A stretch of DNA of 44,839 nucleotides from Phycisphaerales bacterium (GTDB lineage Bacteria > Planctomycetota > Phycisphaerae > Phycisphaerales > SM1A02): assembly GCA_022446965.1 (NCBI GenBank), contig JAKVBV010000019.1, positions 1 to 44,839 of the forward strand. Reading direction: 5' to 3'. A program made the position numbers and the translations under genes. The notes under the pieces were generated by a model, which ran no database searches, was not told where the DNA came from, and saw only the letters and a program-made list of their open reading frames with translations. Below are positions 15,128 through 23,577 of the stretch, piece after piece; the stretch's first letter is position 1; the number at the start of each line of letters is the position of its first letter.

Positions 15128-15955
15128 TCAGGCGTCTGACAACGCGAACCATCCCCGTTCCGTGCGTGTGAGTCGATGCACGGCTTGGCCCGGTTCGTGG
15201 TCGAGGACCAGTAACCATCCTTGATCGCAGATGCGATCGAACAGTGCGGTCTTGGTGCACTTGGTCTGGTACGGCTCCATGTCGTAGCCGCAGCTCCACG
15301 CTGCGCCGAGATGATGCATGGTGGGCATCAGATCACCGGGAAAGCACAGCGTGCCGTCGGCGGTGTCCATGCACACGGCCTGTTGCCCCCAGGTGTGTCC
15401 CGGGGCCGGAAGCACACAAATGCCCGGTTCGATCTCCTGCGCGCCATCGACCAATGTGAGTCGGTCTGCGATCGGATCGAGGTGTTCACGCAGGTAGGTG
15501 CCTGTCATCGTGGAACGGCCAGCATTGGCGTCGCGCCACTCCTGAGCTTGCACCACGATGTCTGCATTGGGGAATGTTGGCACGGGGGTGTCGCCATTGA
15601 GTCGGGTGAGTCCGCCGGCGTGGTCGAAATGCAGGTGCGTCACGATCACACGGTCAATGTCATCAGGCGACACGCCAACTTCGCCGAGGGCGTCGATCAC
15701 ACAGCGGGACTCGAGGCCATACATGGCTCTCGCCTTGTCGGTCCACTTGTCGCCACAGCCCGTTTCCACCAGCACGGTGCGGTTGCCATTGCGCAACAGC
15801 ACGCAGTTGGTCTGCAATGTGATGCGATTGCGATCATCCGGTTCGATGCGCTGCGACCACATCGTCTTGGGGACGATGCCGAACATGCTGCCGCCATCGA
15901 GCAGCAGCGTGCCTGCGCGGAGCAGGGTCCAGTCCCATGTGGGTGTGTCGGTCAC
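15128..15955 (-). CDS. MBL-fold metallo-hydrolase
   Basis: A 275-residue metallo-beta-lactamase-fold hydrolase. THLHFDHAGG supplies the first metal ligands; PAPGHTWGQQ and CFPGDLMP supply the later His and Asp; LDHEPG is near the end. Overall layout resembles AttM/AhlL-type lactonases and related hydrolases. The GTG start overlaps the E2 stop (GTGA), so it is the last gene of the branched-chain catabolic operon. It might hydrolyse a CoA thioester or lactone intermediate, but the sequence does not show the substrate. It ends 9 bp from the convergent secreted-protein gene. Confidence 0.85.
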   Translation of the reverse strand: MTDTPTWDWTLLRAGTLLLDGGSMFGIVPKTMWSQRIEPDDRNRITLQTNCVLLRNGNRTVLVETGCGDKWTDKARAMYGLESRCVIDALGEVGVSPDDIDRVIVTHLHFDHAGGLTRLNGDTPVPTFPNADIVVQAQEWRDANAGRSTMTGTYLREHLDPIADRLTLVDGAQEIEPGICVLPAPGHTWGQQAVCMDTADGTLCFPGDLMPTMHHLGAAWSCGYDMEPYQTKCTKTALFDRICDQGWLLVLDHEPGQAVHRLTRTERGWFALSDA

Positions 15956-17316
15956 ACGTCGGGGAGGAGTTTGTCGGGTGCTTCAAGCAGGCCGACGACC
16001 GTGTTCAGGAATCGTGCGCCTTCGGCACCGTCCACAACACGATGGTCGCAGGACAAGCTCAGGGGCAACACCAGACCGGCGTAGAACGACCCATCTCGCG
16101 TGAGCACCTGCTCCTTGGCTCGCCCCACGGCAAGGATGCCCACTTCGGGGTAGTTGATGATCGGCGTGGCGAAGGCACCGCCGTAACTACCCACGTTGGA
16201 GATCGTGAATGTGCCACCACTGAGCCGTTCACGTTCGATCGTGCGGTCACGGCAGCCCTTGGCGGCGGCGCCAACAGCATCGGCCAATTGCACCACACTG
16301 AGCTGATCTGCGTCGTGGATGACGGGCACCATCAATCCATGTTCGGTGTCGACGGCGCAGCCGAGATTCACCACGCTGCGAATCAGGATCTCGTCGACGA
16401 AGTCATCGACAGTGGCGTTGATCGCCGGATGCTTGAGAAGGGCCTGGCACACGGCGCTCATCACGAACGGCAGCAGACTCAGCTTGCGCCCGAGCAATTG
16501 CTCGTAGCCCTTGCGCTTGCGATTGATCGCGGTGACATCGGCTTCATCGACCACGGTGAAGTGCACGGTGGTCTGCACGCTGTGGTGCAGCGACTGGGCG
16601 ATTTTGCGACGCACGCCACGGAAGGGGATGCGCTCGGCGACACCTTCTATGGGAGCGCTCACTCGGGTGGCGAGTGGTTCGTCTGCAGGTGCCGCTGGCT
16701 GAGCCACCACTGGTGGGGGCGCCGCAGGCTGCGACACAGCGGCCGGCTGGACCGTCGGAGCGGTTGCGCCGGTGGCATGGGCTTCGATGTCCGAAGCTGT
16801 CACGCGGCCACCGCGGCCCGTGCCAGCCACAGCGTTGATGTCCACGTTCAGATCACGGGCAATCCGGCGAACGGCGGGCGTGGCCTGTGCCTTGCTGCCC
16901 GTGGCTGCCGTGGATGTGGCATCGGCGGCACGTTGGAAGCTCGCAGGCACCGACAAGGTGGCATCGACAGAGCCCACCACGGTGCCAGCGTCTTCACGTT
17001 CGCTGGCGGTGTCAGCAGCAGGTGCGGCGTCGACAACCGGGGCCTCAGCGGAGGCCTGACCGATGTCATAGGTCACGAGAATGCAGCCGACGTTGAGGAT
17101 GTCACCCTCGTTGCCGTTGAGGTCTTTCACCACACCGGCCCACGGGCTGGGAACTTCCACTAGGGCCTTGTCGGTTTCCATCTCGGCGAGCGTTTGGTGT
17201 TCGTCCACCTTCTCGCCGGGCTGTACACGCCACTTGATGAGTTCAGCCTCATGCACACCCTCTCCCAGATCGGGAAGGATGAAGTGGCTCCTGTCATCGG
17301 GTTGCTTGGTCGCCAT
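15952..17316 (-). CDS. Dihydrolipoamide acyltransferase E2 of branched-chain 2-oxoacid dehydrogenase
   Basis: A 454-residue E2 with one lipoyl domain (FILPDLGEGVHEAELIKW; lipoyl Lys50 in EMETDKALVE). Ala/Pro-rich linkers follow. The peripheral-subunit-binding domain reads TPAVRRIARDLNVDINAV followed by GTGRGGRV. The C-terminal catalytic domain ends with DHRVVDGA (His425, Asp429), the acyltransferase signature. With the adjacent E1 alpha and beta it converts branched-chain 2-oxo acids to acyl-CoA. No E3 (lipoamide dehydrogenase) gene is in the window. AGGA lies 6 nt before the ATG. A pyruvate dehydrogenase E2 is possible on motif grounds, but leucine dehydrogenase next door favours the branched-chain complex. 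Confidence 0.9.
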   Translation of the reverse strand: MATKQPDDRSHFILPDLGEGVHEAELIKWRVQPGEKVDEHQTLAEMETDKALVEVPSPWAGVVKDLNGNEGDILNVGCILVTYDIGQASAEAPVVDAAPAADTASEREDAGTVVGSVDATLSVPASFQRAADATSTAATGSKAQATPAVRRIARDLNVDINAVAGTGRGGRVTASDIEAHATGATAPTVQPAAVSQPAAPPPVVAQPAAPADEPLATRVSAPIEGVAERIPFRGVRRKIAQSLHHSVQTTVHFTVVDEADVTAINRKRKGYEQLLGRKLSLLPFVMSAVCQALLKHPAINATVDDFVDEILIRSVVNLGCAVDTEHGLMVPVIHDADQLSVVQLADAVGAAAKGCRDRTIERERLSGGTFTISNVGSYGGAFATPIINYPEVGILAVGRAKEQVLTRDGSFYAGLVLPLSLSCDHRVVDGAEGARFLNTVVGLLEAPDKLLPDV

Positions 17317-17333
17317 GTCGAATCCTGCTGCGA

Positions 17334-18302
17334 TCAGTACGCAGCCAACTCCTCGATCGCCTTGCCGACGCGCTCGGCATCGGGAAGATACTCAAGTTCA
17401 AGCTTGTAGTAGGGCATGATGGTGTCGAAGCCGGCCACGCGTTGCACCGGAGCTTCGAGATACAAGAAGCACTGCTCCATTACGCGGGCGGCGATTTCGG
17501 CGCCGATTCCGCAGGTCAGCGGAGCCTCGTGCACGATCACACAACGTCCAGTTTTGCGGACCGACGTCATGATCGTGTCGTAGTCCAACGGGTTGATCGT
17601 GCGGAGGTCGATCAGCTCGATGTCGCGGCCGCTGGCTTCCACGGCGTTCATGCACTGCACCATGGAGGCGCCCCATGACACCATCGTCATCTCTTCGCCT
17701 TCACGCACCACACGGGCTTCACCGATCGGCACGGTGTATTCACCCTCCGGCACTTCTTCGCGGAAGGCACGGTAGATGCGCTTGGGTTCAAAGAAGATCA
17801 CCGGATCCGGATCACGCAGGGCGCTGGTGAGCAGACCCTTGGCGTCGTACGGTGTGCTGGGCATGACCACTTTGATGCCTGGGTTGTGTGTGTAGATCGC
17901 TTCCGGGCTGTCGCTGTGCAGTTCCGGGGCGTGAATGCCACCGCCAACAGGCACCCGAACGGTGAGCGGGCAGGTCATGCCGCTGCGTGTACGGGTACGG
18001 ATACGACCAGCGTGCGTACACAGTTGGTCATAGGCGGGACCGAGGAAGCCCTCGAACTGGATTTCGGGCACAGGGCGAAGGCCCGCAATAGCAAGGCCGA
18101 TGCTCGTGCCGATGATGCCCGATTCAGCTAACGGGCTGTCGACCACGCGGTCGCCGCCGAACTGCTCGTGCAGGCCTTCGGTCACGCGGAATACGCCACC
18201 ATTGGCGCCGACGTCCTCCCCGAGCACGATGACGCGGTTGTCCCGCTCCATCTCTTGGGCGAGCGCCTGGTTGATCGCTTGAACAAGTGTGAGATTCGCC
18301 AC
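17334..18302 (-). CDS. 2-oxoacid dehydrogenase E1 beta subunit (branched-chain)
   Basis: A 322-residue subunit with the transketolase-type pyrimidine-binding domain: VIVLGEDVGANGGVFRVTEGL, then VVDSPLAESGIIGTSIGLAI. The C-terminal transketolase domain ends in RVAGFDTIMPYY. The frame is open upstream to 18419, but the start is set at GTG 18302 (VANLTLVQAINQALAQEM). AGGA precedes it by 7 nt, and this leaves a natural 10-nt gap after E1 alpha. It pairs with E1 alpha to form the alpha2-beta2 thiamine diphosphate enzyme that decarboxylates branched-chain 2-oxo acids and acylates the E2 lipoyl group. Confidence 0.92.
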   Translation of the reverse strand: MANLTLVQAINQALAQEMERDNRVIVLGEDVGANGGVFRVTEGLHEQFGGDRVVDSPLAESGIIGTSIGLAIAGLRPVPEIQFEGFLGPAYDQLCTHAGRIRTRTRSGMTCPLTVRVPVGGGIHAPELHSDSPEAIYTHNPGIKVVMPSTPYDAKGLLTSALRDPDPVIFFEPKRIYRAFREEVPEGEYTVPIGEARVVREGEEMTMVSWGASMVQCMNAVEASGRDIELIDLRTINPLDYDTIMTSVRKTGRCVIVHEAPLTCGIGAEIAARVMEQCFLYLEAPVQRVAGFDTIMPYYKLELEYLPDAERVGKAIEELAAY

Positions 18303-18312
18303 GGGGTGATCC

Positions 18313-19431
18313 TCAGGAATGTTGCGCGACCGGGGCCGCAATCTGGCTGGGGTCTTGGCCGATGCTGCTGGTTCGCATGGTGTCCCGCTGGGTGCGGAGG
18401 TTCTGCGGCAGCGTTTCATACATGTGATCGAAGAAGTCGTCCTTCAAGGGGGCTTCGATGCCCTCCGCCCGTTCGGTGATCTGGGCGACTTCGTGTTCGA
18501 CCTGTTCGTTGATGGCGGCATCGCGGGCGTCATCCCAGATACCGAGGTTCACCATGTGCTTCTTGATGCGAATCAGCGGATCGCGGCCTTGCCACGCCTC
18601 GACTTCGGCTGCGTCGCGGTAGCGACGGGCGTCGTCGGCCGTGGTGTGATCGCCGAGGCGGTAGGTGACCGCTTCGATGAACGTGGGCCGGTTCTCTTCA
18701 CGTGCCCGCTTGGCGGCGTCACGCACCACCTTGACCACGGCGAAGATGTCATTGCCGTCGCACTGCACGCAGTCCATGCCGTAGGCCAGACCACGCTGAG
18801 CGATCGTCGGTGCCGAACACTGGATTCTGGTGGGCACCGAAATGGCCCACGAGTTGTTCTGGCACATGAAGATCACGGGGATGTCGAGGTTGGCCGAGAA
18901 GTTCATGGCTTCGTGGAAGTCGCCTTCGCTCGTGGCGCCGTCGCCGAAGAACGTGCAGGCCAACCCACCGTCACCGCGGTACTTGGATGCCCAGGCCAAC
19001 CCTGTGGCGTGCAGCATTTGCGTGCCGATCGGAATGGCGATCGGGGTGATCTTCAGCGCCGGGTCGATGTTGTTGCCCCGTTCGTCACCCATCCAGTGCA
19101 GGAGGATCTTCTCCGGCGGCAGGCCGCGCCAGAACAGGCCCGCGTTCTCGCGGTAGCAGGGCACCAGCCAGTCCTTGTCGGTGAGCGCGTAGGCGGCACC
19201 GAGCGACGGGCACTCTTGGCCACGGTTCTCGGGATAGGTGCCCATGCGGCCGGAGCGTTGCAGCTTGAACGAGATCTCATCGAACTGCCGGCACATGCGC
19301 ATGTGGCGATACAGATCGACGAGGTCGTCGTTGGGAATCAATCCCTCGCCGAGCGAGGCATCGAAGTTGGCGTGCTCATCGAGGATCGAAACATGATCGA
19401 TCTTCGTTTCGAAGATTGGCTCAGCTGGCAT
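18313..19431 (-). CDS. 2-oxoacid dehydrogenase E1 alpha subunit (branched-chain)
   Basis: A 372-residue subunit. The thiamine diphosphate motif runs from GDG (163-165, in FFGDGATSEGDFHEAMNF) to NN (192-193, in MCQNNSWAISVP). RLGDHTTADDARRYR matches the phosphorylation-loop region of branched-chain E1 alpha proteins. The ATG at 19431 has GGAGAG 5 nt upstream and overlaps the leucine dehydrogenase gene by 11 bp; the longer frame upstream is rejected. It catalyses the committed decarboxylation step of leucine, isoleucine and valine breakdown. Translation is probably coupled to leucine dehydrogenase. Confidence 0.92.
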   Translation of the reverse strand: MPAEPIFETKIDHVSILDEHANFDASLGEGLIPNDDLVDLYRHMRMCRQFDEISFKLQRSGRMGTYPENRGQECPSLGAAYALTDKDWLVPCYRENAGLFWRGLPPEKILLHWMGDERGNNIDPALKITPIAIPIGTQMLHATGLAWASKYRGDGGLACTFFGDGATSEGDFHEAMNFSANLDIPVIFMCQNNSWAISVPTRIQCSAPTIAQRGLAYGMDCVQCDGNDIFAVVKVVRDAAKRAREENRPTFIEAVTYRLGDHTTADDARRYRDAAEVEAWQGRDPLIRIKKHMVNLGIWDDARDAAINEQVEHEVAQITERAEGIEAPLKDDFFDHMYETLPQNLRTQRDTMRTSSIGQDPSQIAAPVAQHS

Positions 19432-20488
19432 GGCAGCTCTCCTGCAGCGGGTTGCCCGATTCAATGCGGGCCTTGGCCAGAGCAATGGCGGCGTCGTAGG
19501 TGGATCCACCATCGGCGTCGCTCAGAATCTGTGCGGTGGTGTGCTCGATCGCGTCGTTGCGTTCTTGCAGATCGTCGATCGTGTAGCCGAGATACAGCCC
19601 GGCGAGGTGAATCACGCCGCCTGCATTGACCACGAAGTCGGGACCGTAGAGCACGCCAGAGTCGGCAAGCGCCGCGGCGTCGCGATCGGGGTTGACGAGG
19701 ATGTTGTTGGCAGCGCCACAGAGGATGTTGGTCTGCAAAGCCTCGATCTGGGCCGGTCCGATGACGGCGCCCAGCGCACACGGAGCAAGAATGTCGCACG
19801 GCGTGGCGAGGATGTCATCTACACCGACCGACTCGGCGCCGAATCGACTGCATGCTTCCTCAACGCGTGCCGTGTTGATGTCGGACACCACAAGCGATGC
19901 GCCAGCGTCGTGCAGCAGTTCGGCGAGATACATGCCCACATGGCCCATGCCTTGAATGGCCACCCGAAGACCGGTGAAGTCATCGCCCTGGCCGGCGTAG
20001 TGCAGGCAGGCCTTCATGCCGTTGAATGTGCCCTTGGCGGTCCACGGGGAGGGGTCGCCACCATCGCAGGCGGTTTCGCCGCCCTTCACGTGGTTGGTTT
20101 CCTGCGCCATCCAGTCGATGTACTGAATCGATGTGCCCACATCTTCGGCTGCGATGTACACGCCATTGAGCGTGTCGACGAAGCGGCCCATGGCACGAGC
20201 TTCCGCCTCGGTCGGTGCCCAGTTGGGTTCGGGCAACAACACCACACTCTTGGCGCCGCCCATGGGCAGGCCGGCGCAGGCCGACTTGTAGCTCATGCCC
20301 TGGGACAGGCGGAGCACGTCGTACAACGCATCATCCTCGGAGGCATAGTGCCAACGGCGTGTACCACCAAGTGCATTGCCCAGCTTCGTGCTGTGCACGG
20401 CGATGATGGCCTTCAGGCCTGACTCGGTGTCTTGATGGAAGCAGACGCGCTCATGGCCCATCTGTGTCATCGTTTCAATCGTGTGCAT
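19421..20488 (-). CDS. Leucine (branched-chain amino acid) dehydrogenase
   Basis: A 355-residue member of the Glu/Leu/Phe/Val dehydrogenase family. The N-terminal catalytic domain has GTRRWHYASEDDALYD and the lysine pair Lys68 (MSYKSA) and Lys80 (GLPMGGAKSV) that bind carboxylate and drive deamination. The NAD-binding domain contains VAIQGMGHVGMYLAELL. Length and motifs fit leucine or phenylalanine dehydrogenase. The adjacent branched-chain E1/E2 genes favour leucine, isoleucine and valine as substrates, giving the 2-oxo acids the complex uses, plus ammonia and NADH. ATGs lie at residues 1, 7 and 10; the first is used, leaving an 18-nt gap after the acyl-CoA dehydrogenase gene. Confidence 0.88.
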   Translation of the reverse strand: MHTIETMTQMGHERVCFHQDTESGLKAIIAVHSTKLGNALGGTRRWHYASEDDALYDVLRLSQGMSYKSACAGLPMGGAKSVVLLPEPNWAPTEAEARAMGRFVDTLNGVYIAAEDVGTSIQYIDWMAQETNHVKGGETACDGGDPSPWTAKGTFNGMKACLHYAGQGDDFTGLRVAIQGMGHVGMYLAELLHDAGASLVVSDINTARVEEACSRFGAESVGVDDILATPCDILAPCALGAVIGPAQIEALQTNILCGAANNILVNPDRDAAALADSGVLYGPDFVVNAGGVIHLAGLYLGYTIDDLQERNDAIEHTTAQILSDADGGSTYDAAIALAKARIESGNPLQESCHAS

Positions 20489-20506
20489 GTCGTGTGAGGT
20501 CCGCGA

Positions 20507-22462
20507 TCAGGCGTTGGTTGTGGAGAAGACTTCGGCGAAATCAGGTGCGAGTGAACCGCTGCCGAACTGTTGGATGGTCTCGGTGTCGATCGGTCGGCCA
20601 TTGCCACGCTGCTCCATATCGGGCGTGGATTCGGGGATGAACCACTTGCCAGCGGGCATGTCCTTGAGGCGGGCGTATGCGACGTCGGCGGCAGCACGCA
20701 TCTGGGTGTCGGTGTTGTGACGCAGGCCGTCGAGGTTGCTGCGAATCTCAGCTGCACCCATGGCCATGATGTAGTCGACCATCGCTCGATCATGCTCGAG
20801 CTGCTCACCTTCGAGGCCGTTGCGAATATCCCGGTCCAGACGCGACAGGCAGCAGCACATGGCGTGAATCCAGATGCAGCTCCAGCTCAGGCGACGTTGC
20901 ACCATCTGGTTGGTGAGAATCTCCTCCTCGAAGTCCTTGAACGAGGTCTTCACGCGATGGCTGAATTCCTGCGTGAGTGAGGCAATCGCATCGGCATGCT
21001 TGCGGAGAGACCCATCAAGCCCTTCGACCGCCGGGGCGGCCCGACGAATGCCAAGGAAAAGTTCCAAAGCGATCTTCATAGCTGCGATCGGATGCTTGAA
21101 GGGGGCGGCCTTCACACCCAGCATGAACTCACCCAACTGCTTGGAGCCGTAGGCGAACACGAAAGAGTGCATCACCTCGTTGGCACCTTCCACGATCACA
21201 TTGATGCGTGAATCGCGCCACATGCGCTCGACGAGGTTTTCGGTCATGTAGCCCTCGCCGCCCATCACCTGCAACGCGTGATCGGTGGCGCGCCAGCCCA
21301 TCTCGGAGCAGAACACCTTGCAGATGGCCGTCTCCAACATGATGTCTACATCACCTCGGTCGACGATGCCGGTGGTCATGTACAGCATCGAGTCCATGGC
21401 GTAGACATAGCTGCCCATGATGGCGAGCTTCTCGCGAACCAGATCAAACTCGCCAAGCGCGCGATCAAACTGGAATCGAGTTTCCGACCACTTCAAGGCC
21501 TGCAGGTATGCGGCTCGTCCCGCACCGACCATGCCGGCGGACAATGTGCAGCGGCCGTAGTTCAGGCAGGTCAACGCCACATTCAGGCCGCGACCTTCCT
21601 TATGCAGCAGGTTGGCCCGAGGAATACGGACGTTGGTGAAGCGGATGCGCGCCTGCCAGGTGCCGCGAATACCGCACTTGCTGCGGTTGCGGCTGAAGAT
21701 CTCGATGCCTTCCATGTCGGGAGTGGCGATGAGCGCCGTGACCTTGTCTTTGGTCTTGCCCGTCTTGGGATCCGTCAGCGGCTGCTTGCACATCACAGTG
21801 AACATGCCCGACAAGGCACCACTGGTGGCCCACTTCTTTTCGCCGTTGAGGATGTAGTACTCCCCGCACTCGGACACTTCGCAGCGGGTTTCTTGTCCGC
21901 CAGCATCACAGCCCACGTTGGGTTCGCTCAGGCAGAAGGCGCTGAGCGTGTCATTGGAGATCTTGGGGAGCCACTCTCGCTTCTGGTCTTCGTTGCCGAA
22001 CAGCATGATGGCGCCGCAGCCGATCGACTGGTGGGCACTCACCATCACGGCCGTCGAACCACACGTGCGACCAATGCGCTCGAGCACTCGGTTGTACGAC
22101 GTGATGCTGTAGCCACCACCGCCATACTCCTGCGACACGATCATGCCCATCACGCCCATGTCAAAGAGGCGCTTGATCGCCCAGTGGGGGATCTCCTGAT
22201 CACGATCGATCAGGTTTGCGGGGTGCTCGTTCTCGAGGTACTCGTCGAGTTCGGCCAGCAGTTGATCACAGCGGGCAGTCTCTTCCGGCGTGACTTCTGG
22301 GTAGGGGAACACCAGATCGTTGCGGAAGTTGCCCCAGAAGAGGTTCTTGACGAACCCCATCGTGGCTGGATCGGGCCCCAGCATTTCCTGGGCCTGTTCG
22401 ATTTGCTTGCGGTCCTTTTCGGAGACGTTCTTCAGATTGTCAGCAAGGTTGGCTTTGGTCAT
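20507..22462 (-). CDS. Long acyl-CoA dehydrogenase (VLCAD/ACAD9-like length)
   Basis: A 651-residue flavoprotein. The core has acyl-CoA dehydrogenase signatures: SAFCLSEPNVGCDAG (174-188), LNGEKKWATSG (205-215), GRGLNVALTCLNYGR (290-304) and QVMGGEGYMTENLVERMWRD (398-417). The catalytic base is Glu425 in IVEGANEV. A further 220 residues follow, so it resembles very-long-chain enzymes rather than the ~390-residue isovaleryl- or isobutyryl-CoA dehydrogenases. Position between an enoyl-CoA hydratase and leucine dehydrogenase nevertheless suggests short branched acyl-CoA substrates. It may serve fatty acids as well. Substrate is unresolved. Confidence 0.85.
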   Translation of the reverse strand: MTKANLADNLKNVSEKDRKQIEQAQEMLGPDPATMGFVKNLFWGNFRNDLVFPYPEVTPEETARCDQLLAELDEYLENEHPANLIDRDQEIPHWAIKRLFDMGVMGMIVSQEYGGGGYSITSYNRVLERIGRTCGSTAVMVSAHQSIGCGAIMLFGNEDQKREWLPKISNDTLSAFCLSEPNVGCDAGGQETRCEVSECGEYYILNGEKKWATSGALSGMFTVMCKQPLTDPKTGKTKDKVTALIATPDMEGIEIFSRNRSKCGIRGTWQARIRFTNVRIPRANLLHKEGRGLNVALTCLNYGRCTLSAGMVGAGRAAYLQALKWSETRFQFDRALGEFDLVREKLAIMGSYVYAMDSMLYMTTGIVDRGDVDIMLETAICKVFCSEMGWRATDHALQVMGGEGYMTENLVERMWRDSRINVIVEGANEVMHSFVFAYGSKQLGEFMLGVKAAPFKHPIAAMKIALELFLGIRRAAPAVEGLDGSLRKHADAIASLTQEFSHRVKTSFKDFEEEILTNQMVQRRLSWSCIWIHAMCCCLSRLDRDIRNGLEGEQLEHDRAMVDYIMAMGAAEIRSNLDGLRHNTDTQMRAAADVAYARLKDMPAGKWFIPESTPDMEQRGNGRPIDTETIQQFGSGSLAPDFAEVFSTTNA

Positions 22463-22480: not shown

Positions 22481-23341
22481 TCAGCCGCGGTTGAGGAAGG
22501 CCTCGATGCGTTGACGGGTGTCTTCGGTGTTTCGCAAGGCGACGATGTTCGCTCGCTCGGCGGCGAGCCCGGCTTCGAGGTCACGTTCGGCACCAGCATG
22601 GATGCAGGCGGTGACCGCATTGGCCGCGGGGGTGTTCAAGCCGCGTGCTTCTGAGCACGCCTTGAGCAGGGCATCGGTATCGACGGTGGACAGGTTGGCG
22701 GGACGGGCTGCCTGCATCGAGGCAGCGTGCGTCGCAGCCGCTTCGATGAGCGTGTCGGGCGTGTCAACCGTGGCATCGGCCAGGCCGGTGGGCATGGCGT
22801 CACTCTTGAATGGACGACCTTGAGCAGTGGCATCAACGGCGGTCGCCGGATCGATGCGGCCAGCCAACAGTTGCGTGCCGCCCCATGCCGGGCACAAGCC
22901 AAGGCCAGCCTCGGGCAGTCCGATGGGATAGGGCTTGTCATTGCCACCAACCGTGCTCGCCACGATGGCGTGGCAGTGCATGGCCAGCTCGAGGCCGCCT
23001 CCAAGGGCAGCGCCACCCACAGCAGCGACCACGGGACAGGTCATGTCGGCGAGTCGGCTGAACACACGCTGGCCTTCCACCATGTAGGCGTCGAGGTCGT
23101 CGTCAGTCAGGCTGTTGATCTCGCTCAGGTCAGCACCGGCCACGAACGAACGCGGGGCATTTGATGCCAGCACGACCCAGTCGGGCTGGTTGGCGAGGAG
23201 GTCGTCGATGGTGCTGTCCAGCCGAGACAGCAGTGTGCGATTCATCACCACGACGGGGCGATCGCCAGCATCAAGCCACACGATCGCGCCACCGTCGGCA
23301 CGTCGTTCGATGGCCAGCGGGGCAAGTGCGGTGTCCGTCAT
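22481..23341 (-). CDS. Enoyl-CoA hydratase/isomerase family protein
   Basis: A 286-residue crotonase-fold enzyme. The start is MTDTALAPLA at 23341, with GGAGAG 9 nt upstream; the open frame before it is low-complexity and not protein-like. Oxyanion-hole segments are present (RSFVAGADLSEI and AVGGAALGGGLELAMHC). Both acidic residues expected of hydratases are kept: Glu in GGGLELA and Glu in IGLPEAGLGLCPAWGGTQ. It resembles the hydratase half of FadJ/FadB more than small hydratases. As first gene of the operon it would hydrate 2-enoyl-CoAs from branched-chain or fatty acid breakdown. A long structured leader precedes it. Confidence 0.85.
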   Translation of the reverse strand: MTDTALAPLAIERRADGGAIVWLDAGDRPVVVMNRTLLSRLDSTIDDLLANQPDWVVLASNAPRSFVAGADLSEINSLTDDDLDAYMVEGQRVFSRLADMTCPVVAAVGGAALGGGLELAMHCHAIVASTVGGNDKPYPIGLPEAGLGLCPAWGGTQLLAGRIDPATAVDATAQGRPFKSDAMPTGLADATVDTPDTLIEAAATHAASMQAARPANLSTVDTDALLKACSEARGLNTPAANAVTACIHAGAERDLEAGLAAERANIVALRNTEDTRQRIEAFLNRG

Positions 23342-23565
23342 GGGAAGGGACTCTCCAAGGGGCCTTGTCGGTGTGCCTTGGGCTCTGCCTTGGCACTGGA
23401 CGAGGTCCGGAATCGGGGGTGGTTGCTCCGCGGAGACAACCTGAAGGGGAAGGCGGATCCGTGCGGTGGACCCTGAACGTGGGGGGCCTGCGGCAAGGGC
23501 CTGCCGCGGGCGTCTGTCGGTCCCGCACACCGGCGAGAATCGCCAGTGGCGACCGCTGCCACTGG
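23342..23565 (-). promoter_or_regulatory. Structured 224-nt leader of branched-chain catabolic operon (candidate cis-regulatory RNA)
   Basis: On the minus strand the predicted transcript starts at about 23565. It begins with a perfect hairpin CCAGTGGC/GCCACTGG (23565-23558 and 23550-23543). Further hairpins are GCGGCA/TGCCGC (23507-23490) and GGTTG...CAACC enclosing CTCCGCGGAG (23441-23421). Two CCAAGG copies (23393-23388 and 23381-23376) are complementary to CCTTGG (23360-23355), whose final GG belongs to the ribosome binding site GGAGAG (23356-23351). This could hide or expose that site. No convincing leader peptide is seen. Regulation is inference from pairing only. Confidence 0.4.
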
Positions 23566-23571
23566 TCGAAC

Positions 23572-23577
23572 ATTCTA
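23572..23577 (-). promoter_or_regulatory. -10 element TAGAAT of branched-chain catabolic operon
   Basis: TAGAAT with a 6-nt gap (GTTCGA) to the predicted +1 at 23565, where an 8-bp inverted repeat begins. That repeat may act as an operator, as a 5' RNA hairpin, or both. No clear -35 is visible. Confidence 0.4.

Follow-up and report, generated by a model that had tools for sequence, protein, structure and literature searches.

Does the gap ahead of a catabolic operon in the genome of a marine Phycisphaerales bacterium carry a regulatory RNA and, if so, of which kind? In the window, i.e. the whole stretch of 44,839 nucleotides that was analysed (contig JAKVBV010000019.1 of assembly GCA_022446965.1), 289 nt of the minus strand separate the stop codon of an enoyl-CoA hydratase gene (ECH1, 23631) from the ATG of ECH2 (23341), the first gene of the operon; this gap contains TAGAAT, a perfect hairpin, several more predicted hairpins and GGAGAG (Table 1). 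The first-pass annotation had proposed a candidate new cis-regulatory RNA here, acting as a translation switch built from CCAAGG and CCTTGG. Of this proposal, a promoter-driven leader without a match in Rfam and hairpins with evolutionary support were retained, whereas the switch and the hallmarks of a riboswitch were not. On balance, the region is probably a promoter-driven, structured 5' UTR of the ECH2-ACAD-ELFV dehydrogenase-E1a-E1b-E2 operon, which would tune translation and/or mRNA stability. Regulatory RNAs of the Phycisphaerales are little described (a literature search in an open library returned almost nothing on point), and with this leader, possible control of a catabolic operon at the level of RNA can be put to the test on a concrete example; it also illustrates how comparison with a few dozen relatives can correct a riboswitch-like reading of a single GC-rich leader.

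Among named genomes, the nearest relatives of the window are Phycisphaerales MAGs, several of which are of marine origin. ECH2 shares 65-66% identity with its orthologues in the window's genus (g1; genomes G000, G001 and G002), with the alignment beginning at residue 1. The operon probably functions in the breakdown of branched-chain amino acids; most of its proteins remain below the curated equivalog cut-offs and E1 alpha exceeds the cut-off of a pyruvate dehydrogenase model, which is why we infer the substrate from the gene content.

Table 1. Features of the ECH2 leader and operon, with positions in the window
Feature	Position	Strand	Remarks
-10 box TAGAAT, context CGGCTAGAATG	23572..23577	-	same in all three g1 genomes
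Predicted 5' untranslated leader, about 224 nt	23342..23565	-	extent deduced from the -10 box
+1 hairpin CCAGUGGC-AGCGGUC-GCCACUGG (RNA)	23543..23565	-	8/8 pairs kept in G000, G001 and G002
SD-proximal hairpin CCU.GUC..GUGCC..GGC-AGA-GCC...GGCAC...GAC.AGG	23363..23405	-	MFE structure in G000, counterpart in G001
Two CCAAGG copies (proposed anti-SD), 23393-23388 and 23381-23376	23376..23393	-	both within the SD-proximal hairpin
Ribosome-binding site GGAGAG	23351..23356	-	GGAGA 10 nt before the ATG in all three g1 genomes
ECH2, operon gene 1, enoyl-CoA hydratase/isomerase family	22481..23341	-	PF00378, E 4.5e-24
Rest of operon, 3' of ECH2: acyl-CoA dehydrogenase, Glu/Leu/Phe/Val dehydrogenase, 2-oxoacid dehydrogenase E1 alpha, E1 beta, E2	15952..22462	-	Pfam/NCBIfam for the first four; E2 from the ORF sequence only

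Promoter and extent of the leader

The -10 box (GCTAGAATG) is invariant across g1, and the predicted start site (+1 at about 23565) was placed by means of it; a generic sigma-70 scan found no promoter. Within 300 nt upstream of the ECH2 orthologue, -10-like hexamers were present in 51 of 77 genomes, compared with 13.9 expected from mononucleotide shuffles, these sites not being independent of each other because the upstream sequences share descent within genera. In many related genera the orthologous hydratase is preceded, 60-240 nt upstream, by promoter-like hexamers, whose distance is near-constant per genus (216-233 nt in g61, 137-141 nt in g34, 139-147 nt in g14 and 63-67 nt in g19). Such equivalent sites ahead of the same gene in many genera make a leader credible. 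The sole other copy of CTAGAAT in the window (39048-39042, minus strand, context GGGCTAGAATGCCCCGATGCCG) is followed after about 10 nt by an ATG, and the gene there may be leaderless and have a promoter of the same type.

Pairing within the genus of the window

The perfect 8-bp hairpin reported at +1 was found as described: the inverted repeat CCAGTGGC-AGCGGTC-GCCACTGG begins where +1 would fall, and the changes observed in its arms within g1 are all G-U compatible. Regarding the alignment of this hairpin from the three genomes, a z-score of -3.58 was obtained (1 of 500 shuffles), and among the dinucleotide shuffles 0.08% had a perfect 8-bp hairpin no further than 5 nt from the leader start (3.75% when any place in the leader was considered). 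The leader as a whole is only slightly more stable than its shuffles (folding energy z -1.59, 13 of 200 shuffles); single-sequence stability in g1 ranged from z -1.6 to -2.1 in G000 to +0.5 in G002, and the full-leader alignment of the three sequences was not significant (z about -1.1). In the three g1 genomes, support for stems was confined to compatible changes in the +1 hairpin and to the SD-proximal hairpin as aligned by hand. For g1 itself the case for a structured leader is therefore suggestive and not proven.

The SD-proximal hairpin shows four double-compensated pairs between G000 and G001 in the hand alignment, the z-score of which (-6.2) is biased, since this alignment was fitted to the structure; the hairpin was not recovered on a MAFFT alignment of the SD-proximal part (z -0.21), and the third genome has a different hairpin at this position. 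The Shine-Dalgarno sequence of the window lies beside the supported hairpin, not within it.

The elements of the proposed switch, i.e. the two CCAAGG copies, CCTTGG (23360-23355) overlapping GGAGAG, and the ATG at 23341, are all present. A hexamer overlapping the Shine-Dalgarno sequence had two upstream complements in 1% of the shuffles and at least one in 31%. Forcing the CCAAGG/CCTTGG pairing costs 6.0 or 4.8 kcal/mol depending on the copy, the partners of CCUUGG favoured in the ensemble lie elsewhere, and no upstream hexamer in G001 or G002 is a perfect complement of the Shine-Dalgarno region there. As both copies are, in addition, engaged in the SD-proximal hairpin, this specific switch is not supported and was rejected. 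The leaders of g8 and g5 were inspected by eye for a shared pairing of an upstream CUCCG with CGGAG near the Shine-Dalgarno sequence, which does not hold in G183 and G006.

Leaders in related genera

ECH2 orthologues were detected in 94 of the 181 genomes of the family (E 1e-50), and 77 upstream regions were compared, the folding of each alignment being tested for covariation against column-shuffled alignments. The z-scores of the sister-genus leaders were -6.5 to -7.3 in g61 (six genomes), -4.3 in g8 (three genomes), -2.8 to -3.7 in g35 (six genomes), -2.35 in g34 and -2.8 in g14. Nine flanking control windows per genus, mostly coding, yielded -1.93 to +0.94 in g61 and -2.6 to +0.32 in g35; the g61 leader thus lies far beyond its own controls and the g35 leader only just, one coding control of g35 having reached -2.6. 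Covariation in relatives, on which the first-pass annotation had staked its proposal, accordingly holds beyond column shuffles for g61, g8 and g35, but not for the full leader of g1 (z -1.07).

In the helices of g61, 96.5% of the cells are paired, compared with 34-52% when the partner is slid, and five pairs have changed on both sides; one of the compensated hairpins contains the ribosome-binding site GGAAGGGAG. As a candidate for translational control, the g61 leader is cleaner than that of the window. At the g61 loci L067, L069, L073, L075, L077 and L078 the terminal compensated hairpin of the leader encloses the ribosome-binding site (CCCUUCC...GGAAGGG and covarying forms). An alternative pairing in g61, of the P1 3' strand with GAUCC adjoining GGAG, was not consistent across all six genomes. 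Regarding g35, 13 double-changed cells were counted, compared with 0-6 when slid, in a model of which one helix (columns 88-116) is misplaced and pairs in only 20% of the cells. With R2, a model of six g35 leaders, a leader outside the training set, that of the g35 genome G036, was detected at an E value of 0.0012. The leaders at the g35 loci L062-L066 and L068 have in common GUUAUGGCU, a covarying hairpin and the genus-specific motif GCCGCUGU...ACAGCGACGACGACA.

The covariance models of the g61 and g35 leaders (R1 and R2) yielded no credible second copy in the 181 family genomes and no match across genera, and scored strongly only at their own operon leaders. The few weak extra matches that were inspected either overlap coding sequence or are simple hairpins without a related gene adjoining, and look like chance. 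Since the structures of different genera did not match each other, only position and promoter link the leaders as homologues. At the g53 loci L150, L153, L156 and L157, the gap between ECH1 and ECH2 is almost closed, and there is neither an intergenic leader nor a -10-like site; the leader is thus confined to some members of the family. In g19 it is reduced to about 60 nt, without a structure signal.

Readings of the leader

These comparisons partly support the first-pass interpretation: the hairpins have evolutionary support, strongest in sister genera, but the leader shows none of the hallmarks of a metabolite-sensing riboswitch. Most likely it is a structured 5' UTR that evolves fast. Transcription starting about 7 nt past TAGAAT would produce an mRNA that begins with a hairpin, likely protecting its 5' end, and a second hairpin would form immediately before the GGAGA ribosome-binding site; together the hairpins would set the exposure of this site and/or the stability of the mRNA. 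Rather than to a small molecule, the hairpins may respond to temperature, to a protein or to the translation state of the mRNA. No terminator-like site was found and the leaders compared contain no conserved upstream ORF, which points to control at the level of translation or stability; a leader-peptide attenuator was rejected on the same two grounds.

An ordinary, non-regulatory long 5' UTR, the hairpins of which would be by-products of high GC content and a distant promoter, is unlikely: single-sequence folding energies barely apart from shuffles, the unstructured leader of g19 and the missing gap of g53 would suit it, whereas covariation that far exceeds controls in g61 and g8 and exceeds shuffles in g35, together with the chance of 0.0008 for the +1 hairpin, argues against it. 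It is likewise unlikely that the leaders represent a family-wide, undescribed cis-regulatory RNA of marine Phycisphaerales, in which fast-evolving, genus-specific hairpins would all gate the ribosome-binding site of the same operon in response to some signal.

Palindromes just downstream of a -10 box occupy the classic position of an operator. The +1 inverted repeat, which is located there and the left half of which (CAGTGGCAG) is invariant in the three g1 genomes, could accordingly be a DNA operator for a transcriptional repressor, followed by unselected GC-rich spacer; we regard this as quite doubtful, since the arm changes keep G-U pairing in the RNA yet break the symmetry of the DNA, and structure is kept in sister genera without this palindrome. 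A regulon search in the three g1 genomes counted 50, 44 and 53 palindromes vs. 83, 24 and 62 for the reversed control, and this lack of consistent enrichment further weakens the operator reading.

A new riboswitch class was taken to have a sequence core common to genera and, usually, copies before several related genes. Such a class, in which a metabolite (a branched-chain amino acid, 2-oxo acid or acyl-CoA) would shift the CCAAGG/CCTTGG pairing and open or close the ribosome-binding site, is very improbable, because the long leader with several hairpins and two potential anti-SD segments before a branched-chain-type catabolic operon is offset by the missing anti-SD pairing in G001 and G002, the absence of a conserved unpaired core across genera, the single copy per genome, the lineage-restricted presence (reduced in g19 to about 60 nt and lacking in g53) and the lack of Rfam matches in the window and relatives. 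The statement of the first-pass annotation that no known riboswitch or T-box core is recognisable agrees with Rfam, which gave no match in the window at the gathering score, none in the loci of 17 relatives at E 0.5 and, for the leader at permissive thresholds, only two chance matches to eukaryotic lncRNAs.

Among known systems, the structured 5' UTR favoured here shares with T-box and metabolite riboswitch leaders (Rfam) a long leader ahead of an amino-acid-type operon, but differs in having no Rfam match, terminator or conserved core and one copy per genome. It resembles structured 5' UTRs that occlude the ribosome-binding site (RNA thermometers, protein-bound leaders) in the hairpin at or beside the Shine-Dalgarno sequence, the absence of a terminator and the fast sequence evolution with pairing kept, which is clearest in g61; it differs in that no thermometer family was matched in Rfam and the Shine-Dalgarno sequence of g1 lies outside the supported hairpin. 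The Bacillus subtilis aprE leader, cited in PMC3997798, is an example of 5'-terminal stem-loops that stabilise the mRNA. The perfect hairpin predicted to begin at about +1 is similar to such stem-loops, whereas the present leader additionally carries an SD-proximal hairpin. Hairpins next to or containing the Shine-Dalgarno sequence would fit gating of the ribosome-binding site, and the 5'-terminal hairpin would fit an mRNA-protecting stem-loop.
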